Shown here piece by piece: positions 39,449 to 59,250 of a stretch of 64,000 nucleotides of DNA. Below the pieces are notes generated by a model. It made no database searches, was not told the DNA's origin, and was given only the letters and a program-made list of their open reading frames with translations. The stretch is from Gemmatimonadota bacterium (GTDB lineage Bacteria > Gemmatimonadota > Gemmatimonadetes > Palauibacterales > Palauibacteraceae). A program made the translations under genes and the position numbers. Where the stretch lies: assembly GCA_022825725.1 (NCBI GenBank), contig JAJDWE010000075.1:1-64000 (forward strand), written 5' to 3'. The stretch's first letter is position 1. Each line of letters begins with the position of its first letter.

Positions 39449-41310
39449 CTCGCGGACGCCTCGCTTTCCCCGGCTGTCTCGTCGTGGCGGCGTGGCTCAC
39501 CGGCCCGCTCGCCGCGCAGGAACCCGACCCAGGGGTCGGGTCGGCGCTCGAGCGGTGCAGCCTGAGGTGGAGCCCGCTCGAAGCCGACACGAGGAGCGTC
39601 ACCAACCGGGACGTGACCGGCGCGCACGTCACGGTTCTCAGCGGCCGCTACCTGTGGACCTGCGGCAACGCCACGATGGAGGCGGACAGCGCGATCAAGC
39701 GCGACGGCCCCCGGCAGGTCGAACTCCTCGGCGCGGTCGTCTACGAGGATTCGATCCGGACGCTGCAGTCGGAACGGCTCCTGTACTTTCAACTCTCCGA
39801 CTTCATCATCGCCGAAGAGAACGTCAAACTCGTCCGTCTGACGGATCGGTCCACCCTCATCGGCCCCCGTGTGGAGTTTCTGCGAGCCGTCTCAGGCGTC
39901 GACGCCGTCACGACCGCGCCCGACCGGCCGATCGTGACGTTCTATCCGACCAACACCGAGTCGCCCGAGCCGTTCCTGATCGAATCGGATCTTGCCATCT
40001 TCGCCGGCGAGGATGAGGCCCGCTTCTACGGAGATGCGATCATAGACCGGACCGATCTGAACGCCCGGGCGGACAGCGCCCTGCTCACTCGGGCCGACGG
40101 CCTCGGCGCCCTGTGGGGCGAGCCGTGGATCGAGGCCGAGGGAATCCGGATGGAAGGCGATTCGATACGATTCGTTTCCGAGAACCAGGAACTCGAGGAA
40201 ATCCACGCCATCGGCAATGGCTACGTGTCCGGGGAGAGATTCGAGGTGGAAGGGGAGTTGATCGACATCGATCTGAGCAATCGCGAGGTGGAGCAGGTGC
40301 AGGCTCACGGGGAAGGCGTGAGCCGGGCGCTCTCCGGCAGCCACGAGCTTTGGGGCGACTCGATTCGTTTCGCGATGTACCGGAGCCAGATCGACACGGC
40401 GTATGCGTTCGGCGGTGCCGTCGCGGTCCAGCGCGACTCGTCCTGGGTGCCGCCGCCCGCACCGGAGCCGGCGACTGCGGATTCGACGGCCGCCGATTCA
40501 GCCGCCGTCGACGCCACGGCCACCGATCCGCCCGCCAGCGATTCGACGGCCGCGGCCCAGGACACCGCCGCAGCCCTCACGCCGGCCGACTCCGCAGCGG
40601 CCCAGGACACCGCCGCAGCCCCCGCTCCGGCGGACTCCGCTGAAGCCGGCGCGGACACGACCGGAGTGGCGGCCGAGGGCGATGAGCCGGCAGAGGACGA
40701 GGAGCTCGAGGAGATCGAACTCCCGACCGATGGCTCCGCGAACTGGGCGCGCGGCGATACCCTCGTCGCGATCTTCGAGCGCTCTGAATCGCCGGTTGCG
40801 GACTCATCGCTCGCGCCCGATCCCTTCATGCGGCAACTCGTGGTCGACGGGAATGCCAGCGCCTTCTACAGAATGGTCCGGGATTCGACGACGAGCACAC
40901 GACCTTCGCTGAACTACATCGTGGCGCGGCGCCTTCAGGTGGACTTCGACGCGGGAGAGCCCACGGGGGTCGAAGGGGAACACGCCATCGGCGCCTTTCT
41001 GGAACCGCGGGAAACGTTCGGGACGCCGTCGCCGGCGGACAGCGCGGCGGCAGCCGACAGCGCGGCCGTGGCCGACAGCGTGGCGGCCGTGGCCGACAGT
41101 ACGGGAGCTGCGGCCGCGGGCGATTCGCTCGGTGCGCCCCAGGACACGTCGGACGTCCGACCCGACAGCGCGGCTGTGGCCGACAGCACGGCGGCGCCAC
41201 CCGATACGGTCGGCGCACCTCCGGACACCTTGCGTACCGGCCAACCGGGACGGGAGCGGCGCGTGACGTCCGGCGCGTCTCCGGCCCTCAGACCCAGGAG
41301 ATCCTGTTGA
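39445..41310 (+). CDS. lptA: LptA/OstA-type periplasmic protein with Asp/Ser/Ala-rich linkers
   Basis: LptA forms the periplasmic bridge that carries LPS from LptC to LptD. The 621-aa protein has a signal peptide ([20 protein letters not shown]) and two or more OstA-type jellyroll stretches ([65 protein letters not shown]). It is far longer than E. coli LptA (about 185 aa) because of two Ala/Asp/Ser-rich segments near 345-405 and 535-600 and repeated domains. Function by context between lptC and lptB is strong, though a tandem OstA-domain protein with a different partner is possible. Confidence 0.75.
40470..40665 (+). repeat. Ala/Asp/Ser low-complexity segment 1 in LptA-like gene
   Basis: Repeats of the [10 protein letters not shown] and [13 protein letters not shown] type run for about 60 residues between two OstA-like blocks. 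Confidence 0.65.
41030..41225 (+). repeat. Ala/Asp/Ser low-complexity segment 2 in LptA-like gene
   Basis: A second run ([18 protein letters not shown] and similar) near the C-terminus resembles the first segment and the LptC tail in composition. Confidence 0.65.
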
Positions 41311-42032
41311 GCAGTGTACTACGGGCCGAAGGCCTCGTCCGCTCCTTCAAGCGTCGCTGCGTCGTGAACCAGGTGGAGATCGAGGTGCGGCAGGGAGAGG
41401 TCGTCGGATTGCTCGGCCCCAACGGCGCGGGGAAGACCACGACCTTCTACATGATCGTCGGCCTGCTCAAGGCGGATGAGGGACGCGTCTACCTCGACAG
41501 CGACGAACTCACGAGCTGGCCCATGTACCGGCGGGCGCGAGCCGGCATCGGCTATCTCCCACAGGAGGCGTCGGTCTTCCAGAAGCTCACGGTCGAACAG
41601 AACGTGATGGCGATCCTCGAGACCATCAGGATGTCGCGTCAGGAGCGGCACGACCGCCTGGAGGAGTTGCTCGACGAGCTGTCCATCAAGCACCTTCGGG
41701 CGAACAAGGCCTATTCGCTTTCGGGCGGAGAGCGGCGGCGCCTGGAAATTACCCGGGCGCTGGCGACCCGGCCCAAGTTTCTGCTGCTCGATGAGCCCTT
41801 CACCGGGGTCGATCCGATCGCGATCGACGACATCCAGCGCATCGTGCGGGGCCTGCGGGAAAAGGGTCTGGGGGTTCTCATCACCGACCACAACGTGCGC
41901 GAGACCCTGTCGATCACGGACCGCGCGTACCTCCTGTTCGAAGGCAAAATCCTGGTGCAGGGCGAGGCGGATCACCTCGTGAACGATCCCGAGGCCCGCC
42001 AACTGTACCTCGGGGAGGACTTCAGGCTCTGA
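41307..42032 (+). CDS. lptB: LptB, LPS export ABC ATPase
   Basis: LptB powers extraction of LPS from the inner membrane with LptF/G (not in this window) and LptC. The 241-aa protein has Walker A GPNGAGKT, the Q-loop region [11 protein letters not shown], signature LSGGERRR, Walker [13 protein letters not shown] and the H-loop ITDHNV, and resembles the Lpt family specifically. TTG at 41307 has AGGAG eight bases upstream and overlaps the LptA stop. Confidence 0.96.
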
Positions 42033-42034
42033 AC

Positions 42035-43504
42035 ATGGCAACGGGACGGCCGAGTCTCGCCGCGGGCCTCCATTTGCGGCAGGAACAGAAGGCGCAGCCT
42101 CGTCTCTACCAGGCGATGGACCTCCTTCACATGCCGCTGCTCGATCTTCAGGGCCACCTGAGACAGGCGCTCGTCGACAACCCCTTCCTCGAGCTCGTGG
42201 AACCCGGAGACGAGCCCGACGACGCCGACGACCTGCGTGACGCCCTGGCCGAAGACGCGGAAGACGGCCCCGCGGATGAGGCGGAGGAGGTGGACTGGGA
42301 GGATGTCCTCCTCGATGACTTCGATGCGGGCGGGTCGCGCGAAGAATACGGGGACCGGGAGTACTACGCGCCCGCGGCGGTCGCCACGCGGAGTCTCTGG
42401 GACCACCTCCACGAGCAGTTGAATCTGCTCCGTCTCGGCGAGCGGGAGCTGCGGATCGGCGAAGAGATCATCGGCAACGTCGACCGTGACGGGTTCCTCT
42501 CATGCTCGCTCGACCGGATCGTCGAGGCGCTTGAGGCACGGCGAGAGGATACGCAGGAAGATCGCCGGGACGCTGCGGGGGCCGTTTCACGGGACGAGGT
42601 CGAGGAGATGCTCGCCCGCATCCAGTCCTTCGAACCGAGCGGCGTGGCGGCGCGAGACCTGCGCGAGACGCTTCTGCTGCAGTTGCGGGACCGCGGGCGG
42701 GAGGCGTCGCTGGCCTGGCGAATCGTCGACGGACACTTCGATGACCTCGCGAACCGTCGGTGGCCGGAGCTGGCGGACGAATTCGGGATCACGCCGCGCG
42801 AGGTGCAGGCCGCGGCGGACGAGATCGCGAAGCTCGATCCCAAGCCCGGTCTCCGGTACGCGGACGCATCGGAGTCCTACGTGATCCCGGATCTGACGGT
42901 GGAGAAGGTCGAGGGCCGGTATCGCGTCTCGCACGCCGACACCTCGCTGCCCCGCCTGAAACTCTCGCCCGTCTACAAGGACGTGGCCGCGGACCGCGCC
43001 CGGTTCCGGGGGGAGAACAAGGCGTTCATCTCGGAGAGGCTGAACAGCGCCCGGTGGCTGATCCAGGCAATCGAGCAGCGCCGGCAGACGATGCTGCGGG
43101 CGATGGATTTCATCGTCGAACGGCAGCACGAGTTCTTCGAGAAGGGCGTCGAACACCTGCGGCCGCTCACACTTCGCGATGTCGCGAAGCACATCGAAAT
43201 GCACGAGTCCACCATCTCTCGCGTGACGAACGGCAAGTACGTCCAGACGCCGCGCGGACTCTATCCGCTCAAGTTCTTCTTTTCGGGGGGCTATTCGACG
43301 CACGCCGGGGAAGACGTGTCGTCGGAGGGCGTACGGGCCCGGATCCGGAAACTGGTGGCGGAGGAGGACCCGACGGCGCCGCTCAGCGACCACGCGATCA
43401 CCGCCCGCCTGCAGAAGGCCGGGGTCCGGATCGCGCGCCGCACGGTGGCGAAGTACCGGGACCAGCTCGGGATCCTCTCGGCGCGGCTGCGCAGGCGCGT
43501 ATGA
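42035..43504 (+). CDS. rpoN: RNA polymerase sigma-54 factor
   Basis: Sigma54 directs transcription from -24/-12 promoters and needs AAA+ activators. The 489-aa protein has the Gln/Leu-rich N-terminus (LRQEQKAQPRLYQAMDLLHMP), an acidic second region, the core-binding region, the helix-turn-helix (TLRDVAKHIEMHESTISRVTNGKYV) and the RpoN box ARRTVAKYRDQL near residue 467. The lptB-rpoN order is common in diderms. It overlaps the next gene by four bases. Confidence 0.97.
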   Translation: MATGRPSLAAGLHLRQEQKAQPRLYQAMDLLHMPLLDLQGHLRQALVDNPFLELVEPGDEPDDADDLRDALAEDAEDGPADEAEEVDWEDVLLDDFDAGGSREEYGDREYYAPAAVATRSLWDHLHEQLNLLRLGERELRIGEEIIGNVDRDGFLSCSLDRIVEALEARREDTQEDRRDAAGAVSRDEVEEMLARIQSFEPSGVAARDLRETLLLQLRDRGREASLAWRIVDGHFDDLANRRWPELADEFGITPREVQAAADEIAKLDPKPGLRYADASESYVIPDLTVEKVEGRYRVSHADTSLPRLKLSPVYKDVAADRARFRGENKAFISERLNSARWLIQAIEQRRQTMLRAMDFIVERQHEFFEKGVEHLRPLTLRDVAKHIEMHESTISRVTNGKYVQTPRGLYPLKFFFSGGYSTHAGEDVSSEGVRARIRKLVAEEDPTAPLSDHAITARLQKAGVRIARRTVAKYRDQLGILSARLRRRV

Positions 43505-44427
43505 GCGATCCGAGAGTCTCGGTTCTCGTCCCGGCGTATGACGAAGCAGAGAACATGCCGGAACTGTTCGCGGAACTCGCGGCGACCTTCGCGGCGCACG
43601 ATCTCGCGGCCGAGGTCGTCCTCGTCGACGACGGTTCCGGCGACGGGACGGCGGAAGCCGCGGAGGCGGCGGCCGCGCAGGCGGGGCTGGGCGACGGGGC
43701 CGTCGTGCTCCGGCACCGCGCGAACCTGGGGAAGACGGAGGCGATGCTCACGGCCGCCGAGGCTGCCCGCGGCGAGTATCTCGTCCTCTTCGACGCGGAC
43801 CTGCAGCATTCCACCGAGGAGATCCCGCGCTTCGCGGCGAAGCTGGACGAGGGTTACGACCTCGTCGCGGGCCGCAAGGTGGGGCGCTACGAGAAGCGGT
43901 TCACCTCGTCCATCTACAACCGGCTCGCGCGCGCGATCTTCAAAGTTCCCGTGCGTGACCTCAACTCCATGAAGGCGTTCCGGGCCGATGTCCTCACGGG
44001 CCTTCGGCTGCGGCACGACTGGCACCGCTACTTCGTCGTGCTTGCCCACGCCCGGGGATACCGGCTCGGCGAGCTGGACATCGACCTCCTCCCGAGACGG
44101 CACGGAGAGCCCAAGTTCTCGGGGCGCCGGCGCATCCTGATCGGGGTGCTCGACATGGTGTCGGTGTGGTTCCAGCTCGTGTTCGGGCGCAAGCCGCTCC
44201 TCTTCTTCGGCACGAGCGGCCTCGCGATGATCGCGGCCGGCTGCGCCACCGGCCTCGCGGCGCTCGTCTTGCGCTTCGGGTTCGGCCTCGGGTACCGGCC
44301 TCTGCTCACGCTTGTGCTTCTCCTCGTCGTGGGAGGCCTTCTCCTCTTCGTCCTCGGCTTCCTCGCGGAGACTATGGCCCAGCTGCGGGACGAGATCGAG
44401 GACTTGAAGCGCGGCAGACCGCAGTGA
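43501..44427 (+). CDS. GT2 family glycosyltransferase (DPM1/GtrB-like)
   Basis: A polyprenyl-phosphate sugar transferase type: the N-terminal GT-A domain has VSVLVPAYDEAENMPELF, VVLVDDGSGDGT, LFDADLQHSTEEIP and KFSGRRRILIG, and the C-terminus has two membrane helices (KPLLFFGTSGLAMIAAGCAT; TLVLLLVVGGLLLFVLGFLA). Such enzymes put a sugar on undecaprenyl phosphate at the inner membrane. The donor cannot be identified. ATG at 43501 overlaps the rpoN stop, and the stop overlaps the GT4 gene. Confidence 0.9.
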   Translation: MSDPRVSVLVPAYDEAENMPELFAELAATFAAHDLAAEVVLVDDGSGDGTAEAAEAAAAQAGLGDGAVVLRHRANLGKTEAMLTAAEAARGEYLVLFDADLQHSTEEIPRFAAKLDEGYDLVAGRKVGRYEKRFTSSIYNRLARAIFKVPVRDLNSMKAFRADVLTGLRLRHDWHRYFVVLAHARGYRLGELDIDLLPRRHGEPKFSGRRRILIGVLDMVSVWFQLVFGRKPLLFFGTSGLAMIAAGCATGLAALVLRFGFGLGYRPLLTLVLLLVVGGLLLFVLGFLAETMAQLRDEIEDLKRGRPQ

Positions 44428-45659
44428 AGGTGGTCCATGTCGTCACGGCTTTCCCGCGCCACGACGACGACGTGATCACCCCCTGGCTCGGAAGACTGCT
44501 GCTCGGCCTGCGCGACCGGGGTCTGGAGGTCGAGGTGCTCGCGCCCGCGTACCGGGGCGGGGGCGCGACGGAGTGGCGGGGGATTCCCGTGCGCCGCTTC
44601 CGGTACGCCCCGGCCGCGCTCGAGACCCTCACGCACGAGGAGACCGCGCCGGACCGCATCCGCCGCCGGCCGGCCTACGCCGCGCTCCTGCCCGGGTACA
44701 TGATCGGCGGCAGCCTGGCGTCGATCGGTCTCGGGGCCTCGGCGCCCCCGGATGTCGTCCACGTGCACTGGCCGGTCCCGCACGGTTGGTTCGGCGCCCT
44801 CGCGCGGGCGTCATCCGAGCGGACGGCGGTGGTCTCGAGCTTCTATTCCGTCGAGATCCGCTGGATCGAACGCCGTCTCCGGTGGGCCCTGCCGTTCCTG
44901 CGCTGGTCGATCGAGAGCGCCGACGCCGTGACGGCGATCTCGACCGCGACGGCCGCGGCCGTGTCCCGGTACACGGCGCGCGAGGTGCCCGTGATCCCCT
45001 TCAGCGCGGCGATCTCCGACCGGCCACTGTCCGACGGCGACGGCGCCCAGGCCCAGCTGCCGGAGCGTGCGGGACCCGTGCGGCTCCTCTTCGTGGGCCG
45101 CCTTGTGGAGCGGAAGGGCGTGCATATCCTGATACGGGCGCTGGCTCGCGTCCGGGAGCGTGTCGAGGCGACGCTCACGGTGGTCGGCGAAGGGCCCGAG
45201 GCCGCCCCGCTGGAAGCGGAGGCCCGCCGCGTCGGCGTCGACCCCTTCGTTCACTTCGCGGGCCGAGTGGATGAGGAAGCGCTCGGCGAGGCGTACCGAA
45301 CGAGCGATCTCTTCATCCTGCCGGCGGTCGTGGACGGCAAGGGCGACACGGAGGGACTCGGCGTGGTCCTCCTCGAAGCGCTCGAGTTCGGTCTGCCCCT
45401 GATCGCCTCCGATGCCGGCGGAATCCCGGACATCGTGAAGCACGGCGAGACGGGACTGCTCACACGGCCCGGCGACGCCGGAGCCCTGGCGGACGCCATC
45501 ATGCGGGTCATCGAGGACCCCGCCGCGGCACGGGAACGAGTCGAGAAGGGAAGGGCGCACATGCGCGAACACTTCGGCCTGCCGAGCGTCGTCGACCGGC
45601 TCGTGAGCGGCTACGAAGGTGCCGTGGCGACCCGGCGTGGATTCAAGGCGGGCGCATGA
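44424..45659 (+). CDS. GT4 family glycosyltransferase
   Basis: A GT-B fold retaining transferase, 411 aa. The C-terminal Glycos_transf_1 domain carries LLFVGRLVERKGVHILIRAL, VVGEGPE, FAGRVDEEALGEAY, and the Glu-rich EGLGVVLLEALEFGLPLIASDAGGIPD. The N-terminal domain has the VVHVVTAFPRHDDD acceptor-side start. GTG at 44424 overlaps the previous stop. Together with the neighbours it is likely part of exopolysaccharide, O-antigen or glycolipid assembly. Confidence 0.92.
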   Translation: MKVVHVVTAFPRHDDDVITPWLGRLLLGLRDRGLEVEVLAPAYRGGGATEWRGIPVRRFRYAPAALETLTHEETAPDRIRRRPAYAALLPGYMIGGSLASIGLGASAPPDVVHVHWPVPHGWFGALARASSERTAVVSSFYSVEIRWIERRLRWALPFLRWSIESADAVTAISTATAAAVSRYTAREVPVIPFSAAISDRPLSDGDGAQAQLPERAGPVRLLFVGRLVERKGVHILIRALARVRERVEATLTVVGEGPEAAPLEAEARRVGVDPFVHFAGRVDEEALGEAYRTSDLFILPAVVDGKGDTEGLGVVLLEALEFGLPLIASDAGGIPDIVKHGETGLLTRPGDAGALADAIMRVIEDPAAARERVEKGRAHMREHFGLPSVVDRLVSGYEGAVATRRGFKAGA

Positions 45660-46573
45660 TCCGGATGGCGGTCATCCGCTGGTATCTCTACGCCCTTTAT
45701 CGGCGTTGCGTCAGGCTCAGAGACCGGCTGCTCCGTCCGCGTGCGCTCTCGGAAGTCGATTCCAATCTCGCTCACCTGCTGCTCGCGCAGTACGGGGAGG
45801 CCGTCGGGGATCCCGATGGGCTCGGATACAGGGAACTCCTCCGAACGCGTGAATTCAAGGTGTCCTCGCAGAATGGAGAAGATGGCCTCCTGGCTTTCAT
45901 CTTCTCCGAGATCGGCGTGACGAACCGGGAATTCGTGGAATTCGGCGTGGGCGACGGCCGCGAGTGCAACTGTGCCAATCTGGCGGCCCGGTTCGGATGG
46001 AGCGGCCTGATGCTCGAGTCCGATGCCGCGGCCGCGCGCCGGGCGCGCGAACACTATGCCCGGCTGGCGCGACGCGATGGGAAGGTCGTAGAGGTCCGGC
46101 AAGCCCATGTGACCGTGGAGAATATCAACGAGACGATCTCGAATGCCGGGACGCAGGGTGAAATCGATCTGCTGTCGATCGACATAGACGGGAACGATTA
46201 TTGGCTGTGGGAAGCGATCGACGCCATCGAACCGCGAGTCGTCGTGATCGAGTACAACGCATCGCTGGGAATGCGATCGATCAGTGTGCCGTACGATCCC
46301 GGTTTCGTCCGTTTTCGCAAGCACCGAAGCGGCTGGTACCACGGTGCGTCGCTGGCCGCCCTGGCGAAACTGGGACAGCGGAAGGGTTATGATCTGGTCG
46401 GTGCGGACAGTCGGGGAGTCAACGCCTTCTTCGTTCGCGCGGAAGCGCGGCGCGGATGCCTCAGGGCCGTGAATGCGGAAGAGGCATACTATCCGCAGAA
46501 GACCCGTCTGACGGCTGCTACTGTCGAACAGCAGTTCGACGCCGTCCGGCACCTTGATTTCGTCGAGGTCTGA
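45656..46573 (+). CDS. FkbM/SabA-like SAM-dependent methyltransferase-type protein
   Basis: A 305-aa cytosolic protein with a Rossmann-like core: FKVSSQNGEDGLLAFIF, EFVEFGVGDGRECNCANLA (SAM-binding-type glycine loop) and IDLLSIDIDGNDYWLWEAI. The same SQNGEDG and IDGNDY motifs occur in proteins found in glycan gene clusters that are annotated as FkbM-type methyltransferases. The substrate and even the catalytic activity are uncertain. It starts inside the end of the GT4 gene (four-base overlap). Confidence 0.7.
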   Translation: MIRMAVIRWYLYALYRRCVRLRDRLLRPRALSEVDSNLAHLLLAQYGEAVGDPDGLGYRELLRTREFKVSSQNGEDGLLAFIFSEIGVTNREFVEFGVGDGRECNCANLAARFGWSGLMLESDAAAARRAREHYARLARRDGKVVEVRQAHVTVENINETISNAGTQGEIDLLSIDIDGNDYWLWEAIDAIEPRVVVIEYNASLGMRSISVPYDPGFVRFRKHRSGWYHGASLAALAKLGQRKGYDLVGADSRGVNAFFVRAEARRGCLRAVNAEEAYYPQKTRLTAATVEQQFDAVRHLDFVEV

Positions 46574-46579
46574 GCGCCC

Positions 46580-48112
46580 ATGACCACGGACGCGGGACAC
46601 TGGGGCGAACGACATCTTGCATCCCTGTCCATCGGACTCGCGGCTCTCCACTTCGTCCTCGGCCTGCTGGTCTTCGAGCCCACGCTGTTTCCCGGCGGAG
46701 ACAACGCGGCGTATCTGATTCTGGGCGACGCGCTGCGGAGCGGGGAAGGGTACCGCGACCTCTACCTGCCCGACACGCCACTGCACACCCGCTATCCTCC
46801 GCTTCTTCCGACTCTACTTGCGGGGCTCGGCTGGATCGGCGGTGTCGGGGTCGCAAAGGTCACGATGCTGCTCCTCACGGCCACGACGGTCTGGGTCACC
46901 GCACACCTGGGTCGGAGGTGGATCGGGGCCGGCGCTGGGATCACCGCGGCTGCGCTGCTGGCGGTCAATCCCACGTTGCTCGAGTACGGACACTACATAC
47001 TGAGCGAAGCGCCGTTCACGCTGCTTGTCGTCGTGGCTCTCCTGCTGTCGCTCCGACCGGACGGCAAGTCCGCGGGCTTCGCCATGTTGGCCGCGATCGC
47101 AGCCTTCGCGACGCGCACGGCCGGCATGACGGTGCTCGCCGCGCTCCCGCTGGCGTGGCTCCTGGAGGGCCGACACCGGCGTGCCGCCTGGTCGGGCGCC
47201 GCCGCGGTGGGAGCACTCGGGGCCTGGGCGCTCTATCAGCGGCTGGTTGCGGCGGACCAGCCGGGGTACATGGCCGAACTTCTGCTTGTCGACCCCTACA
47301 CGCCGGAGGCCGGCACCGCGGGTCTCGCGGAGCTGTTCGCCCGGGCTGCGGAGAACAGTTGGGCTTATGTCAGCCGGGTCCTTCCCGAGACGTTCCTGGG
47401 GTTTGGTACAGGGATGGGGAGTGGTACCCCGGCCGTGGCGCTTGGGGTCGTGATCGCGGCCGCGGCGCTTACCGGATGGGCGATCCGGTCACGGCGGCAG
47501 ATTCGGGCGCCGGAAGTGCTTGCTGTCTTGTACGCCGGCTTGATCGCGGCGTGGCCGTCGGTCTGGACGGATCGCCGCTTCCTTCTGCCTCTGGTGCCCG
47601 TCCTGCTCCTTCTGGCGTTTGCAGCGCTTCGGCAACTGCCACCCGTTCCACGCCGCTGGGCTGCGTGGGTCGCACCGGCCGTCATCGTACTGTTCGGGAT
47701 CTCGTGGGTCGGTCGTGCCGCCCCCGACCGTATCGCCTGCGTGGCCTCGTATCGGACGGGGATGCCATGCGACGCTCCGGCAAACGCGAGCCTGTACGAG
47801 GCAGCCCGGTGGGCACGCGACAACACGCCCCCGGACGCGATCATCGCCAATCGCAAGCCGCGACTGTTCTACTGGTACGCCCGGCGGCGGGGAGACCTCT
47901 ATCCCTACTCGAATGACCCCTCGACCGTTATTCGAGGTCTCGAAGCGATGCGCGCAGACTATGTGGTTGTCGACCGGATCAGCGGGACAACTGAGCGCTA
48001 CCTCGTCCCGGCGATTCAGGAGCACGAGTCCCGCTTCGAGATGGTCTACGCAGGCGGCGATCCGGCGTCCGCCGTTTTCCGGTTCCTGCCTTCTTCCGCG
48101 AACGTGGACTGA
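46580..48112 (+). CDS. ArnT/PMT-type membrane glycosyltransferase (GT39/GT83-like)
   Basis: A 510-aa integral membrane protein with about 10-11 helices. The first periplasmic loop has FPGGDNAAYLILGDALRSGEG and the conserved RYPPLLPTLLAG, resembling PMT_2/ArnT-like transferases that use polyprenyl-phosphate sugars. The C-terminal part (YEAARWARDNTPPDAII; DYVVVDRISGTTE) is a soluble periplasmic domain seen in this family. The donor sugar is likely supplied by the GT2 protein upstream. Confidence 0.72.
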   Translation: MTTDAGHWGERHLASLSIGLAALHFVLGLLVFEPTLFPGGDNAAYLILGDALRSGEGYRDLYLPDTPLHTRYPPLLPTLLAGLGWIGGVGVAKVTMLLLTATTVWVTAHLGRRWIGAGAGITAAALLAVNPTLLEYGHYILSEAPFTLLVVVALLLSLRPDGKSAGFAMLAAIAAFATRTAGMTVLAALPLAWLLEGRHRRAAWSGAAAVGALGAWALYQRLVAADQPGYMAELLLVDPYTPEAGTAGLAELFARAAENSWAYVSRVLPETFLGFGTGMGSGTPAVALGVVIAAAALTGWAIRSRRQIRAPEVLAVLYAGLIAAWPSVWTDRRFLLPLVPVLLLLAFAALRQLPPVPRRWAAWVAPAVIVLFGISWVGRAAPDRIACVASYRTGMPCDAPANASLYEAARWARDNTPPDAIIANRKPRLFYWYARRRGDLYPYSNDPSTVIRGLEAMRADYVVVDRISGTTERYLVPAIQEHESRFEMVYAGGDPASAVFRFLPSSANVD

Positions 48113-48113
48113 C

Positions 48114-50465
48114 ATGTCGACCGAAAACGGCCGGAGGGATTACACGCCACTATGGTTCCTGGGCGCTGCCGCTCTGGTGACCCTGCTGTTCTACCGCGAC
48201 TTCGTCTTCCATCCGGAGCGGCTGATCTCCGGATCGGACATGCTGTTCGAGGGGATCTCCCTGCGGCGCTTCTACGTGGACGAGATCCAGGCGGGCAGGG
48301 GTGTTCCGCTCTGGGTTCCGAACGTGTACGGAGGCATGCCGTTCGTCGGTCTCCTGCCCGGGCCCATCTTCTATCCGTCTACCGTCCTCTACCTCTTGAT
48401 GCCGCTCCACAGGGCCATCGGATGGACGTTCGTCCTGCACACCTTCCTGGGCGGTGCATTCGGCTACTTCCTCGCGCGCTCGTTCCGGTTGCGGCCCTCG
48501 TCCGCCGTCGTGTGCGGGGCTTCGTTCATGCTCACCGGCTACATCACGTCGCACCTCTACGGCGGGCACGATGGGCGGATGTTCGCGATGACCCTCATCC
48601 CCCTCGCGCTCGGACTCCTGAACCGCGCGCTCGAGAGCGGGGAGGCGCGCTGGTTCTGCGGGCTCGCGCTCACCATCGCGGTCCAGGCATTCACGCCCCA
48701 CACGCAGGTGATGTACTTCTCCAGCCTCGTCCTGTCCGCCTTCTTCCTCTTCCATCTCGCCTTCCGCATACTGCGGCCGGGGAAGGGGGGAGGCCACCGA
48801 GCATACGTCCGGCCGGTGGTTGGATTCGCGCTCACGGTCGTCGCCTCCATCGCCCTGGCGGGGCCGCAGTTGTTTCCGGTGCTGGGTCTGCTCGACAACG
48901 TGACACGGGCCGCCGCCGAAACGGGCTACGATTTCGCCGCCTCGTGGGCGTTGCCTCCCCAGGAGGTGACCGCGCTCTTTCTGCCCGATCTCATAGGGTC
49001 CCTCGGGGGGTACTGGGGACAACAGGTGTTCAAGCTGCATACGGAGTACCTCGGATCGGTGCCCCTGGCCCTCGCGATTCTGGGGTTCTCGGCGGGCATC
49101 CGCAGCGGGCTGCCTGCGGAGCAGCGGCGCACCATCGCGTTTCTCGCCGTGGCCGGTCTTGTCGGGGTTCTTTTCGCCCTGGGAGCGGCGACGCCGGTCC
49201 ACCGCATCGCCTATGCCGTGCTCCCCCTCATCGAAAGCCTGCGGGCGCCCGCAATGATGCTCGGGGCCGTGGCGGTGTTCGTGGCCCTGTTGGCCGCGTA
49301 CGGGTGGGAAGCCGTTCTCCACCGGCGAGAGGCGGATGCCCAGGTGTCCTTGATTCCACTCGCACTCGTCGGTGGCCCCATCGTGATCCTTGGACTCTGG
49401 GCCGCTCTCGACCCTCGCGGGCTGGCGAATTTCGTCGTCCTGTCCTGGTATCCGGAAGGCTGGCCGCGGCAACCCGGGGCGAATGCCGTCTCCGCGCTGC
49501 GCGCGAACGGCCTCGTTCTCGTCGTCGGATTCTCGCTCGCCTGGGGCGTCGCCTGGGCGGTCTCGCGCCGCAGCCTTACGCCGTTTGCACTGGTGCCGGT
49601 CCTGGCCTTCGGCGTTCTGGACCTTTGGCGCGTGGACGCCCGCTATCTTCACGTCCAGGTCGCCGAAGCCGCGCTGACCCCCGATCCCGTCGTCAGGGCA
49701 ATCCAGGAACGAGCGGAGACAGGAGAGCGCGTCTGGGCACCGAACCTTGGCGGGCCGGTACGCAACTACGGGCCGAACGAACTGGCTTTCCATCGGATCG
49801 CGTCCGCCACCGGCCGACAGAAGTTCCTCCTGGAGCCGTACTCGGCCCTTGTGGGGGGGATCGCTCCAGACGAGGGACTGGTCCGCGATCCCGTGCGTTC
49901 GCTCCTCAACGTCCGCTACTTCATTGGGACCGCGGCGCAGGAGGGCGTCGAACCTCTCGCGGAGGCTTCCGGCCGCTACCTGTACGGGCTCCCGCCCGGT
50001 TCGGCGTACGCGTTCTTCCCCCGGCAGGTCGAAACGGTGGCGAACCCGTCGGAGGCCGTGGCGCGGACGTGGGAGAACCCCAATCCCGAGGCCCTGTCGG
50101 TGGTGGAGCCGCTCGCGGGCCGGGCTCCGCCCGCTGCGGGGAGGGGCACCGCGGCGATCGTTCGATATGAACCGGATCGGGTCGAGCTCGAGGTCGAAGC
50201 CGAAGAGGCGGGGCTCCTCGCCGTGAGCGAGATCCACGATCCCGGCTGGCGCGCCTTCGTGGATGGTGCGGAGACCGCCGTGTGGCGTACGAACACGGCT
50301 TTCCGCGGTGTGCTGATTCCGGAGGGACGACACCGCCTCACCTTCGAGTACCGGAGTCTGTCCTTTCAAATCGGCGTGTGGACGTGCCTGGTCACGCTGC
50401 TGCTGATTTTGCTTGTGCTTGTGAAGACGCGAACCTCCGGCGGCGAGAACGGTGAAGACGGCTGA
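48114..50465 (+). CDS. YfhO-family membrane protein (putative polyprenyl-linked glycosylation)
   Basis: This large 783-aa protein has about 12 helices and a C-terminal periplasmic domain. The start MSTENGRRDYTPLWFLGAAA leads into LFYRDFVFHPERLISGSDM and WVPNVYGGMPFVG, typical of YfhO-like proteins, which carry out lipoteichoic acid glycosylation in firmicutes. The C-terminus has AVSEIHDPGWRAFVDG, the usual HDPGWRA-like motif, followed by a final helix. The real substrate in a diderm is unknown. It begins one base after the preceding gene's stop. Confidence 0.8.
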   Translation: MSTENGRRDYTPLWFLGAAALVTLLFYRDFVFHPERLISGSDMLFEGISLRRFYVDEIQAGRGVPLWVPNVYGGMPFVGLLPGPIFYPSTVLYLLMPLHRAIGWTFVLHTFLGGAFGYFLARSFRLRPSSAVVCGASFMLTGYITSHLYGGHDGRMFAMTLIPLALGLLNRALESGEARWFCGLALTIAVQAFTPHTQVMYFSSLVLSAFFLFHLAFRILRPGKGGGHRAYVRPVVGFALTVVASIALAGPQLFPVLGLLDNVTRAAAETGYDFAASWALPPQEVTALFLPDLIGSLGGYWGQQVFKLHTEYLGSVPLALAILGFSAGIRSGLPAEQRRTIAFLAVAGLVGVLFALGAATPVHRIAYAVLPLIESLRAPAMMLGAVAVFVALLAAYGWEAVLHRREADAQVSLIPLALVGGPIVILGLWAALDPRGLANFVVLSWYPEGWPRQPGANAVSALRANGLVLVVGFSLAWGVAWAVSRRSLTPFALVPVLAFGVLDLWRVDARYLHVQVAEAALTPDPVVRAIQERAETGERVWAPNLGGPVRNYGPNELAFHRIASATGRQKFLLEPYSALVGGIAPDEGLVRDPVRSLLNVRYFIGTAAQEGVEPLAEASGRYLYGLPPGSAYAFFPRQVETVANPSEAVARTWENPNPEALSVVEPLAGRAPPAAGRGTAAIVRYEPDRVELEVEAEEAGLLAVSEIHDPGWRAFVDGAETAVWRTNTAFRGVLIPEGRHRLTFEYRSLSFQIGVWTCLVTLLLILLVLVKTRTSGGENGEDG

Positions 50466-51435
50466 CGGAGAGGCGGCCGCCGGTTCCAGCGATCCTGGAC
50501 GGTCTCGAGTCACCATGCTCGCCATGGTGGCTTTTCTCCTGGTCTCGCTCGTGGCGGTGGCTCTGGCACTGTCGCGCACCTGGGCTGCCTGGCCGGGCGT
50601 CGCCGAGTCGGCGGGTGCGAACTGGCGCTTCAATCCCGTGTGGCTCGTGGGCGGAGTCGTCTCCTCGGCCGCCGCTCTCTGGGTCGGCGGCGGCCTCTGG
50701 GGCGCCCTTTTTCGGTCGGCCGGTGGACGAGCGGGGATTCCCGAAGCGGCTGCGGCCTGGCTCGGTTCCAACCTGGGCCGGTATGTGCCGGGCAAGATCT
50801 GGCAGGTGACAGGCCTCGTCGGCTACGTCCGGACCCGCGGGGATTCCGGAGCCGGGGCACTCGCGACCCTGTTGGTGTTCCAAAGCGTGATGCTGGTTAC
50901 CGGTGCCGGACTGGGCTGGGCGACACTCGGCTCCAGAGCGTTTCAGGACCTCGGTCTGTGGCCGCTCGTTGTGGGCGTGCTGGGCGTAGCCGTGGCTCTC
51001 GCCCCTCCCACGCTGCGGCTCGTCGTCCGTCTCGGACAGCGGCTGCTCCGGGAACCTGGAGATCCGGGGCCCGTATCAATCCAAGGGAAGATGTTGGCCC
51101 GCACAGCCGTCGGCGGTGTCGCCGTCTGGATATTGCACGGATTCGGATTCTGGGCGCTCCTCCAGGGGCTTGTCGCGGAGAATCCTGTCGATCCCGTCTT
51201 GGCGTGTGGGGTGTTTTCGACGTCGTACGTCGTCGGTTACGTCGCCGTCATCGCCCCCGGTGGGATCATCGTGCGCGAGGGGTCGATCGTCAGCTTGCTG
51301 AGCGTTGTAGCCTCGATTTCGCTTGGACCCGCCGCGGCGCTGGCGCTTGCCGCTCGAGTGTGGGCCACAGCGGCCGAACTCCTTGCGTTCGGCGTCGGGT
51401 TCGCGATCGCCCGGCGGCGACCGCGGACAGGTTGA
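50452..51435 (+). CDS. LPG_synthase_TM/flippase-like integral membrane protein
   Basis: A 327-aa protein with about eight helices in the fold shared by the membrane half of lysylphosphatidylglycerol synthase (MprF) and UPF0104 proteins. Visible motifs are AWLGSNLGRYVPGKIWQVTGLVGY and the conserved VGYVAVIAPGGIIVREGSIVSLL. Such proteins often sit in glycan clusters and may move or modify lipid carriers. GTG at 50452 overlaps the YfhO-type gene by 14 bases. Confidence 0.75.
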   Translation: MKTADGEAAAGSSDPGRSRVTMLAMVAFLLVSLVAVALALSRTWAAWPGVAESAGANWRFNPVWLVGGVVSSAAALWVGGGLWGALFRSAGGRAGIPEAAAAWLGSNLGRYVPGKIWQVTGLVGYVRTRGDSGAGALATLLVFQSVMLVTGAGLGWATLGSRAFQDLGLWPLVVGVLGVAVALAPPTLRLVVRLGQRLLREPGDPGPVSIQGKMLARTAVGGVAVWILHGFGFWALLQGLVAENPVDPVLACGVFSTSYVVGYVAVIAPGGIIVREGSIVSLLSVVASISLGPAAALALAARVWATAAELLAFGVGFAIARRRPRTG

Positions 51436-51472
51436 CGTCAGGCGGCACGAACCCTTGGGAAGGGCACAGCGC

Positions 51473-53101
51473 ATGTCGTTTCGTGACCGGAGTCCACGGG
51501 TCCGCTTCCGGATCGCCCTTCCGATCCTCTTGCTCGTTGCCCCGGTTGTCGGTTGCGGAGGCGGGGACGGCTTGATCGTGGATCCCGACCCGATCCCGAT
51601 ACCCCCAATCAACCATTCGCCCGAGACCACCGTTGCCATTCCGGCACAATCCCTTGTCGTCGGCACGAACGTAACGGTGGACCTCTCGCAGTTTTTCAGG
51701 GACCCGGATGGCGACGCCCTGACATACAGCGCCACGTCATCCGACACGCTCTTCGCGGAAGCGGGGGTGTCCGGCCACCGGCTGATCCTCGTCGCCGTAT
51801 CCCGGGGTGTGGCGGCGGCCGCGATCACGGCCAGCGACGGGAGAGGTGGGGAGGCGCGTCAGTCGTTTCCCGTGACGGTGCCGAACGCGCCGCCGATGGC
51901 CGTGGGCGAGATTGACTCAAGGACGCTTTCGCCGGGGGGCACGGAAACGATTGACCTCTCCCCCTATTTTAGCGATGCGGACGGCGACGCTCTGACGTAC
52001 GGCGCCGCGTCATCCGACACGCTGGTTGTCCGGGTCTCGGTGTCCGTCCATCGGCTGACGCTGGTGGCCGTGTCCCGCGGTGCGGTGGCAGCCACGATCA
52101 CCGCCCGTGACGGGATGGGTGGGGAGGTCCATCGGTCGTTTGCCGTGACCGTTTCAGGGACCGCGCTGAACTCTCCGCCGGTCCCCGTGGGCGAGATCCG
52201 TTCGAGGACGATCGCCACGGGAAGCACGGCTGCGATCGACGTCTCTCGCTACTTCAGCGATGCGGATGGCGATGCTCTGACGTACAGCGCCACGTCATCC
52301 GACGCACTCGTAGCGGAGGCTTCCGTTTCCGGGAGTGAATTGGCCATGGTCGGGGTTTCTCCCGGCGTTGTGGAGACGACCGTGACGGCGCGGGACGACG
52401 AAGATCTCGAAGCTCGGCAGAGCTTCGAATTGACGGTCTGCACGGTTCCCCAGGGCATCCTGCACTGGTGGTCGGCCGACGGAAGTGGTGCCGAGCGTGT
52501 TGGGGGCGTGGACGCGATCCTCGGCGGCGGAGCTACATATGCGCAGGGGATTGTGGGTGACGGTGGCGGAGAGGCCTTCTCCTTTGACGGGGTGGACGCC
52601 ATCGCCCTCGTCCCCGACGCCCCGACGCTCAATCCGGAGGGTCCGTTCACCGTCATGGCGTGGGCTCGAACGGGCCCGGTGCCCAGGCCCAACGGCGCGA
52701 TCGCCGGCAAGGGACACCCCTGGGCGGAGTCCTGGCTGCTCGACACGCACCGGGATCGCTGGAGGGCCGTAATTCGGAACGAAGACGAGCTGAGCACGGC
52801 CGCATACGGCTCGAGGATCGAACCGATGACGTGGACCCATGTAGCCATGAACTGGGACGGCGAGACTTTGACTCTGTATGTGGACGGACAGCCGGTCAAG
52901 GTCGATACGGTCACCTCAATCAACGTGACCGACGCGCCGGTAGGGATCGGCGCCCGAAGCGAGAAGGGCTTCACCGACGACGAACTCCATTTCGAGTTCG
53001 AGGGAGAGATCGACGAAGTGATGTTCTTCGGACGGGCTCTCGGCGAGGAGGAGATAAAGTCGGTGTTCGACAACACCGCCGTTGGCTTCTGCAGTCCCTG
53101 A
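51473..53101 (+). CDS. Lipoprotein with three cadherin-like repeats and a LamG-like domain
   Basis: The 542-aa protein has a signal sequence ending in the lipobox VVGC (Cys27), so it should be anchored in a membrane by lipid. Three repeats of about 85-90 residues follow at about 45-135, 136-225 and 226-320. Each contains DADGDALTYSATSSD-type Ca2+-loop motifs and a sandwich-like end (AVSRGVAAAAITASDG; SFAVTV). From about 325 there is a ConA-like LamG_3 domain (LHWWSADGSGAERVGG; FTVMAWART; WTHVAMNWDGETLTLYVDG). A likely role is surface sugar binding or adhesion. It follows the glycan cluster. Confidence 0.8.
   Translation: MSFRDRSPRVRFRIALPILLLVAPVVGCGGGDGLIVDPDPIPIPPINHSPETTVAIPAQSLVVGTNVTVDLSQFFRDPDGDALTYSATSSDTLFAEAGVSGHRLILVAVSRGVAAAAITASDGRGGEARQSFPVTVPNAPPMAVGEIDSRTLSPGGTETIDLSPYFSDADGDALTYGAASSDTLVVRVSVSVHRLTLVAVSRGAVAATITARDGMGGEVHRSFAVTVSGTALNSPPVPVGEIRSRTIATGSTAAIDVSRYFSDADGDALTYSATSSDALVAEASVSGSELAMVGVSPGVVETTVTARDDEDLEARQSFELTVCTVPQGILHWWSADGSGAERVGGVDAILGGGATYAQGIVGDGGGEAFSFDGVDAIALVPDAPTLNPEGPFTVMAWARTGPVPRPNGAIAGKGHPWAESWLLDTHRDRWRAVIRNEDELSTAAYGSRIEPMTWTHVAMNWDGETLTLYVDGQPVKVDTVTSINVTDAPVGIGARSEKGFTDDELHFEFEGEIDEVMFFGRALGEEEIKSVFDNTAVGFCSP
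51620..52435 (+). repeat. Three tandem repeats of about 270 bp in the lipoprotein gene
   Basis: DNA encoding DADGDALTYxAxSSD occurs three times at about 51705-51745, 51975-52020 and 52258-52305, within repeat units that are also similar elsewhere. The copies have diverged, so they are not very recent. Confidence 0.75.
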
Positions 53102-53147: not shown

Positions 53148-53492
53148 TTATCCGGCCTCCGGCGGGACCAGCGGCTCCAGTCGGTCGATCAGGCCCGGAA
53201 GGTCGTGACAAACCGTTCGCCAGACGAGTTCCAGGTTGATCTCGAAATAGGCATGCACGAGACGATTTCGCATGGCGATGATGTCACGCCACGGGATGTC
53301 CGGGTGAGCCTGCCGCGTACCCCTGTCCACTTGTGCCGCGGCCTCGCCGACGATCTCGATCGCCTTCGTGGCCGAAAAAACGGCTCGCTCGTCTCGCTCG
53401 AAGTCGGCGAATGACATGCCCTCCGTGAACGACAAGGCCTTCCTTGCGGCGAGAAGCATGTCCAGCAGGTATTCGGACTCCTCACGTGGCAT
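53148..53492 (-). CDS. hepT: HepT-type HEPN toxin (DUF86)
   Basis: HepT is an RNase-type HEPN toxin in HEPN/MNT toxin-antitoxin pairs. The 114-aa all-helical protein has the active motif R-x4-H-x-Y at Arg75, His80, Tyr82 (RNRLVHAY), the Tyr being the site that the antitoxin AMPylates in known systems. ATG at 53492 is best, since the frame beyond reads into the antitoxin. It overlaps mntA by 11 bases, as is normal for the pair. Toxicity is inferred from family only. Confidence 0.9.
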   Translation of the reverse strand: MPREESEYLLDMLLAARKALSFTEGMSFADFERDERAVFSATKAIEIVGEAAAQVDRGTRQAHPDIPWRDIIAMRNRLVHAYFEINLELVWRTVCHDLPGLIDRLEPLVPPEAG

Positions 53493-53844
53493 AGACCACC
53501 CTCGCGGACTCCAGTATCTTCTTCCGCCGAATGTAGTTCCGGCTCCTTTCGATCGTTGGACGATGTACCAGATCGACCCGGCGGCGGCACATGTCGGCCA
53601 GTTCACTTCTGATCCTGGCGGCTACGAACAACCCCGGCGTCTGTCCCGGCTTGAAGCGAACGAGGACGTCGATATCGCTGTTCGGCCCGAAGTCGTCGCG
53701 CAGCACCGATCCGAACAGCGCCAACTCCTCCACCCCCCAGCGCTCACAGAAGGCCGCGATTCGGCTCATGGGAACACCCAGACGCGCGGCCAGGCGCTCG
53801 CGGTCCAGCATCTCTGCGGTTCCCGCTCGCACCGAGGCCTCCAT
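53482..53844 (-). CDS. mntA: MntA-type nucleotidyltransferase antitoxin
   Basis: MntA neutralises HepT by transferring AMP groups to it. The 120-aa protein from ATG 53844 has the minimal nucleotidyltransferase motif Gly45-Ser46 and Asp57-x-Asp59 (GSVLRDDFGPNSDIDVLV). A GGAG ribosome site lies eight bases upstream. The ATG overlaps a TAA stop in another frame (TAATG), as if coupled to an earlier gene. The same frame is also open upstream to 54183 and would give a 233-aa chimera carrying an integrase N-terminus. Confidence 0.85.
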   Translation of the reverse strand: MEASVRAGTAEMLDRERLAARLGVPMSRIAAFCERWGVEELALFGSVLRDDFGPNSDIDVLVRFKPGQTPGLFVAARIRSELADMCRRRVDLVHRPTIERSRNYIRRKKILESARVVYAT

Positions 53845-54401: not shown

Positions 54402-55193
54402 ATGAGCCCCGACACCTCTTTCCCGGCGTCTCCTGACCCCGAAGACGACCCCGTCGCTCCCGCGGTTCCTGTGGACGGCGAACGCGGCCTCGTCATCCTG
54501 CCCACGTACAACGAGATCGACTCCATCGGCGGGATCGTCGAGCGCGTTCTCGCCCAGGACAGCCGGCTGTCGGTCCTCGTCGTCGACGACGCGTCTCCCG
54601 ACGGGACGGGCGCCCTCGTCGACTCGCTTGCCGCGGCGGATCCGCGCGTGAACGTGCTGCACAGGGAGGGGAAGCTGGGGCTCGGGACCGCCTACATCGC
54701 GGGTTTCCGCTGGGCGCTCGAGCGGGATTTCGAGTGGATCTTCGAGATGGACGCGGACGGGTCGCACGACGCGCGGTATATTACGGACATGATCGCCGCG
54801 GCCGCCCGCTTCGATGTCGTCGTCGGATCCCGCTATACTGCGGGCGTGAACGTCGTCAACTGGCCCATGTCGCGTCTGCTCCTCAGCTACTACGCGAACA
54901 AGTACGCGCGCATCGCCACGGGGCTGCGGCTCGCCGATTCCACGAGCGGCTTCAAGTGCTTCGCGCGCCGCGTGTTGGAGGCGATCGACCTCGACCGCGT
55001 GGGATCGACCGGGTACACGTTCCAGATCGAAATGAACTTCCGCGCTTGGAAGAAGGGGTTCCGCGTCGGGGAAGTCCCCATCGTGTTCACCGATCGTCGC
55101 CTCGGGCAGAGCAAGATGTCGGGAGCGATCGTGCGTGAGGCGGTGTGGCGGGTGTGGGCGCTGCGTCTGCGGTCTCTGATCGGGAGGCTGTGA
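54402..55193 (+). CDS. Polyprenol-monophosphomannose synthase-type GT2
   Basis: A 263-aa DPM1-like GT2 transferase without C-terminal helices. It has GLVILPTYNEIDSIGGIVE, VLVVDDASPDGTGAL, IFEMDADGSHDARYI, VVVGSRYT and FVGEVPIVFTDR-like sequence (FRVGEVPIVFTDRRLGQSKM). It likely makes polyprenyl-phosphate-mannose or a similar donor on the cytoplasmic side. The first 25 residues are a Pro/Asp tail. The stop shares a base with the start of the K+ channel gene (TGATG). Confidence 0.9.
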   Translation: MSPDTSFPASPDPEDDPVAPAVPVDGERGLVILPTYNEIDSIGGIVERVLAQDSRLSVLVVDDASPDGTGALVDSLAAADPRVNVLHREGKLGLGTAYIAGFRWALERDFEWIFEMDADGSHDARYITDMIAAAARFDVVVGSRYTAGVNVVNWPMSRLLLSYYANKYARIATGLRLADSTSGFKCFARRVLEAIDLDRVGSTGYTFQIEMNFRAWKKGFRVGEVPIVFTDRRLGQSKMSGAIVREAVWRVWALRLRSLIGRL

Positions 55194-56107
55194 TGGCCAA
55201 GAACCGGACCATGTCGTACTTCCCGTCCCGGCGAGACCCTCCGCGCCCGGCGATCGACTACGAGACGCACCCGGTCTTCTCGCAGCGGCCGCAGTGGAGG
55301 TGCGAGGCCCACCGCATCATCTTCGGCAACCTGACCCCCGCCGGCCGGCTCTTCGACGTCGTCCTCATCGGTGTCATCCTCGCCAGCGTCGTCGTCGTGA
55401 TGCTGGAGAGCGTGCAGGGATTCGACGTTCGCGTGAACGACACGCTGTGGACGCTCGAATGGGTGTTCACGGCGCTGTTCACGATCGAGTACGTGCTCCG
55501 CCTCATCTCCGCGGAACGCGCCGGCGGATACGCCCGTTCCTTCTTCGGGATTATCGATCTGCTCGCCGTCCTGCCCAACTTCGTGGGGTTGCTGATCCCC
55601 GGAGGACAGGCGCTCGCCGTCATCCGCGTGCTCCGGGTGCTGCGGGTGTTCCGGGTCCTGAAGCTCGCCCAGTTCGTGGGGGGCGAGCGGCTGCTGATCA
55701 ATGCTCTGCGCTCGAGCGCCTACAAGATCGCCGTCTTCATCGTCGCCGTGCTCGTCGTCGTCACGCTCGTGGGCGCGGCGATGTACGTGATCGAGGGAGC
55801 GGAGGCGGGCTTCGACAGCATCCCCCGCGGCGTCTACTGGGCCATCGTGACCGTGACGACGGTGGGGTTCGGCGACATCACGCCCCAGACCACGCCCGGG
55901 CAGATGCTTGCCGCGCTCCTCATGATCCTGGGGTACGGCGTGATCGCCGTCCCGACGGGAATCGTGACGGCCGAGATCACGGGCCGCGAAATGAAGGTGC
56001 GCTCCGCCCGCCCCGCCATGGACCGGCTGTGCCTGCGCTGCGCCTCGCCGGGGCATGACGAGGATGCCACCCACTGCAAGCACTGCGGTTCCGAACTGCT
56101 CGAATGA
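55193..56107 (+). CDS. Voltage-gated K+ channel with C-terminal zinc-ribbon-like motif
   Basis: A six-helix channel of the Kv type, 304 aa. S1-S3 are hydrophobic, S4 carries the regular Arg repeat AVIRVLRVLRVFRVLKLAQF, and the pore has the selectivity filter TTVGFGD (about residues 222-228) followed by S6 (VIAVPTGIVTAEI). After S6 is a short soluble tail with two CxxC pairs (CLRC...CKHC), likely a zinc ribbon. ATG at 55193 or GTG at 55190 are in the same frame. The channel overlaps the methyltransferase gene by four bases. Confidence 0.92.
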   Translation: MAKNRTMSYFPSRRDPPRPAIDYETHPVFSQRPQWRCEAHRIIFGNLTPAGRLFDVVLIGVILASVVVVMLESVQGFDVRVNDTLWTLEWVFTALFTIEYVLRLISAERAGGYARSFFGIIDLLAVLPNFVGLLIPGGQALAVIRVLRVLRVFRVLKLAQFVGGERLLINALRSSAYKIAVFIVAVLVVVTLVGAAMYVIEGAEAGFDSIPRGVYWAIVTVTTVGFGDITPQTTPGQMLAALLMILGYGVIAVPTGIVTAEITGREMKVRSARPAMDRLCLRCASPGHDEDATHCKHCGSELLE

Positions 56108-56862
56108 CCAGCTCGTCATCGCAGGCCGACCCCGCCGAGCGCGACTACTACGAGGAGTTCCTGGCGAGCCGTGAGTACAGGGAGAGCCGGGCCCGCAAGG
56201 CGGCGGTCCTCGACATGATCGTGGGCGACAGGATCCGGGCGGGGGGCACGATCGGCGATGTCGGGAGCGGCACGGGTCTCCTCAAGCGCGAACTCGAGAA
56301 GCTCAGCGGGCAGCCCATCATCGGCTTCGAGGTGGATCCCGGGGTCGTCATCGAGCGCGGCCGCACCTGCGTGGCCGATGGGACCCGGCTCCCGACCTCG
56401 GACGCGAGCTTCGACTTCCTCATCGTGAACCACCTCTACGAACACGTGGCCGACCCGCGAAGGCTGTTCGCGGAGGTGTCCCGGGTGCTCAAACCCGGCG
56501 GCTCCGCCTACGTCAGCGCCGGCAGCCGCTGGGCCGTCGTCGAGCCGCACTACCGGCTGCCGTTTCTCAGCTGGCTGCCTCGGGGACTGGCCGACCGTTA
56601 CGTTCGCTGGACGGGGCGGGCGAAGAGCTACCGGGGAATCCGTTTCCTGGGGTACCGCTCGCTGCAGCGTGCGATGGACATCCCGGAACTGCGAAGCGCC
56701 GACATGACGGAACACGCGATTCGATCCGTGCTAAACGGAGGAGGCGGCGGAAAGTGGCAGCCCGTCTGGCGGGTGCTCTCCGTGCTTCCCGTCCGGCTGC
56801 GCCGCTGGATCCTGCGCCGCGGACCGCAGTGGTTCTTCCTCCTCACGCGGCGGGATCGATGA
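56104..56862 (+). CDS. Class I SAM-dependent methyltransferase
   Basis: A 252-aa Rossmann-type methyltransferase. The SAM-binding loop is IGDVGSGTGLL, followed by EVDPGVV, ADGTRLPTSDASFDFLIVNHLYEHV and VSRVLKPGGSAYVSAG. This Methyltransf_11 type acts on small molecules, quinones or sugars; the substrate is open. The C-terminal WQPVWRVLSVLPVRLRRW is amphipathic and may touch the membrane. It overlaps the channel gene by four bases and the next gene by four. Confidence 0.87.
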   Translation: MTSSSSQADPAERDYYEEFLASREYRESRARKAAVLDMIVGDRIRAGGTIGDVGSGTGLLKRELEKLSGQPIIGFEVDPGVVIERGRTCVADGTRLPTSDASFDFLIVNHLYEHVADPRRLFAEVSRVLKPGGSAYVSAGSRWAVVEPHYRLPFLSWLPRGLADRYVRWTGRAKSYRGIRFLGYRSLQRAMDIPELRSADMTEHAIRSVLNGGGGGKWQPVWRVLSVLPVRLRRWILRRGPQWFFLLTRRDR

Positions 56863-59198: not shown

Positions 59199-59224
59199 GG
59201 CGGCGCGCCGCACCCAGCGCCGCC
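59199..59224 (+). terminator. GC hairpin after DUF5916 gene 1
   Basis: An 8-bp stem (GGCGGCGC/GCGCCGCC) with a 10-base loop begins at the first base after the stop codon. No T-run follows. It may separate expression of paralogue 1 from paralogue 2. Confidence 0.4.
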
Positions 59225-59250
59225 CGGATTGAACTCTCGGGCTCCCCGGG

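Follow-up and report, generated by a model that had tools for sequence, protein, structure and literature searches.

A predicted transmembrane glycosylation module linked to lpt genes in Gemmatimonadota is retained in a genus that lacks lipid A genes

The CsbB/GtcA/YfhO and GtrA/GtrB/Gtr glycosylation systems combine a GT-A polyprenyl-phosphate-sugar synthase bearing C-terminal transmembrane (TM) helices with a GT-C acceptor transferase, which in several of them is YfhO (PMC8035078). A gene cluster of Gemmatimonadota shares both components, but has no adjoining GtrA or Wzx and places an MprF-fold protein in the flippase position, contains two donor synthases and a GT4 glycosyltransferase, is linked to the genes of the lipopolysaccharide (LPS) transport machinery Lpt, and resides in a Gram-negative host, where it is independent of lipid A. 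The cluster also resembles the archaeal AglD/UPF0104 loci with STT3/PMT-like neighbours, in which a UPF0104 protein adjoins a DPM-like GT2 and a GT-C enzyme, although the archaeal genes serve S-layer N-glycosylation and neither YfhO nor an Lpt linkage has been described for them (PMC5898192). The gpgSDF and hexSDF operons likewise pair a GT4 with a UPF0104 protein predicted to be a flippase and make a membrane glycolipid, but they have neither polyprenyl-phosphate donor synthases nor a GT-C and do have a deacetylase (PMC12713373), whereas the module genes identified in the window, the whole 64,000-nucleotide stretch of DNA analysed here, include no deacetylase.

Two further comparisons bear on what such a cluster might modify or export. 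The Pgf system of Streptococcus mutans has a TM-anchored GT2 and two large membrane transferases, as the present cluster does, but includes an epimerase, and no GT4, flippase or Lpt linkage has been described for it (PMC5856776). In LPS-less Borrelia, Lpt is retained without LPS, and its cargo has been proposed to be a glycolipid (PMC10353723), while a commentary argues that the LptD homologue exports lipoproteins (PMC13317210); Lpt homologues are also kept by LPS-less spirochaetes, Thermus and Thermotoga (PMC10353723). The parts of these two sources that we consulted describe no lpt-linked glycan module in Borrelia, whereas the locus reported here has a dedicated one. For the Gemmatimonadota themselves, no structural or pathway paper on LPS or glycolipids was among the matches listed in searches of the open-access literature.

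The window is a Gemmatimonadota contig, and the nearest named relatives within the species collection are Candidatus Palauibacter and metagenome-assembled genomes of Gemmatimonadales. In the window, a gap-free run of genes on the forward strand begins with lptC (38381–39448; PF06835, E 1.4e-6), a linkage partner of the module in many genera, and continues through a gene in the lptA position, between lptC and lptB, encoding a periplasmic protein (39445–41310), lptB (41307–42032; TIGR04406, E 5e-111, above cut-off) and rpoN, encoding sigma-54 (42035–43504; Pfam Sigma54 domains). It then passes into genes for a GT2 with two C-terminal TM helices (43501–44427), a cytoplasmic GT4 glycosyltransferase (44424–45659; Glycos_transf_1, 2e-41), an FkbM-like or SAM methyltransferase-like protein (45656–46573), an ArnT/PMT-like GT-C (46580–48112), a YfhO-type GT-C glycosyltransferase (48114–50465), an LPG_synthase_TM/UPF0104-type membrane protein, hereafter LPGTM (50452–51435), and an Ig-repeat/LamG lipoprotein (51473–53101; Laminin_G_3, Big_9 and He_PIG matches, lipobox VVGC). 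The order of the seven genes from GT2 to the lipoprotein and their tight packing, both noted in the sequence-only reading, are borne out by the gene coordinates, with 4-nt overlaps at each of the rpoN/GT2, GT2/GT4 and GT4/FkbM junctions and spacings of 6 nt between FkbM and ArnT, 1 nt between ArnT and YfhO and 37 nt between LPGTM and the lipoprotein ATG at 51473. YfhO and LPGTM overlap by 14 nt if LPGTM starts at the GTG at 50452, or are separated by 49 nt if it starts at the ATG at 50515.

Downstream on the forward strand, a soluble DPM-type GT2 (54402–55193, start may be 54471) is split from LPGTM by the lipoprotein gene and by an antisense pair of toxin-antitoxin type (53148–53844, reverse strand) encoding a HepT-like RNase and an MNT-type nucleotidyltransferase. 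It is followed by a Methyltransf_11 protein, MT11 (56104–56862, forward strand; Methyltransf_11 match), and by three successive proteins of 750–770 aa with alike N-terminal motifs, apparently paralogues (56886–63854). Scans of the window for Rfam families, tRNAs and promoters or terminators returned nothing above chance.

Profile comparison placed the first GT2 closest to ArnC, its profile matching ArnC along the full length (5e-46) and GtrB sll0501 (2e-32), in each case with the TM part included, and the profile of the DPM-type GT2 matched the dolichol-phosphate-mannose synthase 5mlz (2.5e-41), so that, as judged by homology, the module likely holds two polyprenyl-phosphate-sugar synthases. 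GT-C enzymes carry a conserved acidic motif in their first extracytoplasmic loop (PMC8035078; PMC11127046), and both large membrane transferases of the window have a conserved acidic residue there: D42 of the YfhO protein is invariant in the alignment and lies directly after TM1, and D41 of the ArnT-like protein is invariant, as is the GGD motif in the same loop (alignment A3). A direct sequence search of the PDB gave no match for the YfhO protein; its structural model (pLDDT 92) matched AftD, ArnT and STT3/oligosaccharyltransferases in a fold search.

The family labels of the sequence-only reading fared unevenly in Pfam. Glycos_transf_2 and Glycos_transf_1 were both far above cut-off, and YfhO (PF09586) stood just above it, at 32 bits against 28.5 and through its C-terminal ~74 residues only, with the GT-C fold lending the label further weight. 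LPG_synthase_TM (PF03706; 19.8 against 33.4 bits) and FkbM (PF05050; 18.1 against 22.7 bits) fell short, Methyltransf_24 was below its own cut-off for the FkbM-like protein too, and the protein labelled ArnT/PMT had no PMT match in the Pfam scan and, in a profile search, a weak match to STT3A (E 4.5e-4).

GtrA is the usual flippase of such glycosylation systems, and a profile search for it (PF04138) found none in the window's genome or in 59 of 60 relatives; since known systems use other flippases too, this lack excludes only the GtrA-type subclass. LPGTM gave only chance matches to the PDB by sequence, and the sole confident fold matches of its model (pLDDT 88) were three MprF structures, with modest TM-scores of about 0.5 and E-values of 0.01–0.12. 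UPF0104 proteins were predicted as flippases in archaeal glycosylation by Makarova and colleagues (PMC5898192), and we regard the MprF-fold LPGTM as a candidate flippase in the place of GtrA, the flipping of polyprenyl lipids by UPF0104 proteins being putative. An LPGTM-type gene was present in 55 of the 60 relatives, with one copy in 53, two in 2 and none in the remaining 5. In one relative (G044) YfhO and LPGTM are fused in one open frame of 1153 codons, an isolated instance that might reflect misassembly; further fusions suspected in other genomes of family f4 were not borne out, the single frame being confined to G044. In sum, both profile matches and structural models speak for a pair of polyprenyl-phosphate-sugar synthases, a pair of GT-C transferases and one flippase candidate.

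A YfhO homologue was found in 115 of 119 relatives and in 94 of 97 good genomes; the genomes G008, G087 and G110 are without any YfhO match, as is the 65%-complete G042. We fetched about 100 loci, called their genes and compared their neighbourhoods, basing the counts on 85 loci from 48 genera, some of which end at contig edges; most of the genomes compared are metagenome-assembled. Within 8 kb of YfhO, LPGTM was present in 75 of the 85 loci, the DPM-type GT2 in 72, the first GT2 and the GT4 in 69 each, rpoN in 57 and lptB in 56. The conserved core is the ArnC/GtrB-type GT2, the GT4, the YfhO-type GT-C, the MprF-fold membrane protein and the DPM-type GT2, and it is usually chained to lptC-lptA-lptB-rpoN. 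In nearly all loci whose upstream side is intact, a gene in the lptA position is flanked by lptC and lptB, and one relative's homologue of its product weakly matched the LptA model. In LPS-bearing genera the module is linked to kds-lpt, and the five-gene core also occurs without adjoining lpt or rpoN in Zixibacteria (L156, L158, L172), UBP14 (L178) and Eisenbacteria (L190). The core is thus kept throughout the class and also beyond it, in other phyla, which rules out a neighbourhood that is not conserved even within a genus, and its class-wide conservation and lpt linkage support the earlier proposal of a lipid-carrier glycosylation system coupled to the lpt operon.

The boundaries of the unit had been drawn differently in the sequence-only reading, which counted seven genes from GT2 to the lipoprotein and overlooked the DPM-type GT2, the fifth core gene. 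The FkbM-like gene occurs only in the window and its nearest relative (G005), and we rejected it as a module part. The lipoprotein is restricted to the window's genus, where it is present in 5 of 13 loci; in five same-genus loci without it, LPGTM is followed directly by the DPM-type GT2, so the lipoprotein is accessory and unlikely to be the dedicated target that it had been suggested to be.

Around the core, gene content varies among families. The ArnT-like gene is distributed over families f1, f2 and f4, a Methyltransf_11 gene sits between GT4 and YfhO in f1 and f4 relatives, and wecB, encoding a UDP-GlcNAc 2-epimerase, lies inside the block in f2 and f6. Methyltransferases of various kinds have been gained or lost in the block among relatives, hinting at a methylated sugar; those seen are of FkbM-like, 223-aa class I and Methyltransf_11 types (L131, L134 and, in the window, 45656–46573 and 56104–56862). 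Five loci of the window's genus (L039–L042 and L044) carry a rearranged module, in which an LPGTM lies ahead of a YfhO that is only ~32% identical and GT4 and, where identified, wecB are on the opposite strand, suggesting that part of the module was replaced within one genus; in L039–L042 the lipoprotein is near the DPM-type GT2. In family f5 (L088, L108, L112, L115), three additional genes lie between GT4 and LPGTM, which, judged from the L088 copies, seem to encode FemAB-type, hexapeptide acetyltransferase and polysaccharide deacetylase-like proteins.

One genus in the window's family, g6, represented by six metagenome-assembled genomes of 71–90% completeness, allowed the module to be viewed apart from lipid A. 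No match to WaaA, LpxB or LpxD and no intact LpxC was found in any of the six, one of which has a 64-residue LpxC fragment, whereas nearly all LPS-positive comparison genomes carry waaA, lpxB, lpxD and lpxC in identical searches. In G026, on a single contig, this fragment corresponds to the final part of lpxC, ahead of fabZ, and skp, lpxD, most of lpxC, lpxA, an oxidoreductase gene, lpxB and an lpxL/lpxK gene are gone relative to relatives, while the genes downstream of the lost stretch are still present, indicating excision in situ. In G021, G026 and G032, the lpt locus has lost kdsB, kdsA and kdsC from both sides of pyrG. In a tree of RpoN and GT2, g6 formed a single clade (support 100/100) that branches from within the LPS-bearing genera, so its loss of lipid A is secondary.

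All six g6 genomes retain lptF/G, and, where the locus is visible, the genus keeps lptC, the lptA-position gene and lptB together with GT2, ArnT, GT4, MT11, YfhO, LPGTM and the DPM-type GT2. The lptC of G026 is above the NCBIfam cut-off; LptF/G matches also occur in the Thermus, Deinobacterium and Thermotoga controls, and the search for LptD (PF04453) was uninformative, missing LPS-positive controls too. The module proteins of g6 are as similar to those of the window as are those of the family's other genera and show no sign of decay. The block of G026 lies in three separate places with all pieces persisting, although rpoN has an apparent truncation and GT4 possibly one as well; GT4 and MT11 are about 69 kb apart (L223, L048), the intervening DNA having Tad-pilus-like genes at its margins, and one gene is in part read as N. 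The retention of the module and Lpt in g6, which lacks lipid A genes, contradicts LPS decoration as the sole role of the module.

We therefore favour, with a probability of about 0.5, a multi-component transmembrane glycosylation module whose acceptor is most likely a lipid-A-independent membrane glycolipid handed to the adjoining Lpt exporter. Gene content, class-wide conservation, donor-synthase homology, the GT-C and MprF folds and the retention in g6 form its direct basis; we infer the sugars, the flipping, the lipid acceptor and the export by Lpt. On the cytoplasmic side, the ArnC/GtrB-type and DPM-type GT2 enzymes would load polyprenyl phosphate with sugars and GT4 would put a sugar onto a lipid acceptor. 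The MprF-fold protein, replacing GtrA, would flip a sugar-carrying lipid, whereupon the YfhO-type GT-C and, in the window's family, also the ArnT-like GT-C would move sugar from carrier to acceptor on the periplasmic side, and the finished glycolipid may then pass to the Lpt exporter next to the module. A GT4 and a UPF0104 protein that yield a glycolipid have precedent (PMC12713373). In its most specific form, this proposal has the module making a non-LPS surface glycolipid as Lpt cargo, beside LPS in most Gemmatimonadota and as an LPS replacement in g6, with an MprF-type protein as the flippase of a sugar linked either to the carrier or to a lipid, a version that we advance only tentatively.

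A decorator of LPS alone would be expected to decay in g6, where the module persists. A reading in which the enzymes decorate LPS core or O-chain, as in Gtr and ArnT systems, and were re-used in g6 fits the kds-lpt linkage in LPS-bearing genera, the proximity of GT2 to ArnC and the fold of YfhO, which is like ArnT among others, but it has to reckon with a complete module in a genus of which six of six genomes are without lpxB, lpxD, waaA and intact lpxC. Moreover, Wzy_C (PF04932, O-antigen ligase/polymerase-type) is absent from the window's genome and scarce in its genus, which speaks against a classic O-antigen acceptor here, and we consider this reading unlikely. Periplasmic protein O-glycosylation, in which the carriers feed GT-Cs that modify surface or secreted proteins, would by contrast outlast the loss of lipid A; pgfS, pgfM1, pgfE and pgfM2 of S. 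mutans modify surface adhesins (PMC5856776), the matches of GT2 and YfhO include NCBIfam PgfS and PgfM1/M2, and in both the window and five genomes of its genus the cluster contains a surface lipoprotein. The Pgf equivalog cut-offs are nevertheless far off (PgfS 68 against 500 bits, PgfM1 25 against 1400 bits), no cognate protein is conserved alongside the module, and the lpt linkage and the core GT4 are left unexplained, making protein glycosylation doubtful, although it is the chief rival to the glycolipid reading.

That the block has no single product, and that unrelated envelope genes are simply held together by an rpoN/lpt promoter, draws on the presence of rpoN and lptB beside the block in many genomes. 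It is highly improbable given that the five-gene core stays together in other phyla without adjoining lpt or rpoN, that G026 retains all parts although they are split over three places, and that G044 has a YfhO–LPGTM fusion. The persistence of the module with Lpt in g6, together with the class-wide lpt linkage, makes an Lpt-exported, lipid-A-independent glycolipid the most economical product.

Whether Lpt carries a glycolipid or a lipoprotein in LPS-less bacteria that have an outer membrane is a matter of debate. In g6, lipid A has been lost while its kin retain it, and Lpt with the linked glycan module provides candidate genes for the biosynthesis of an alternative cargo, so the cargo question becomes open to a genetic test. 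If the glycolipid reading is true, an MprF-type protein would become one of the few candidate flippases for lipid-linked sugars, and a class-wide gene cluster without an assigned product in the open-access literature would be explained.
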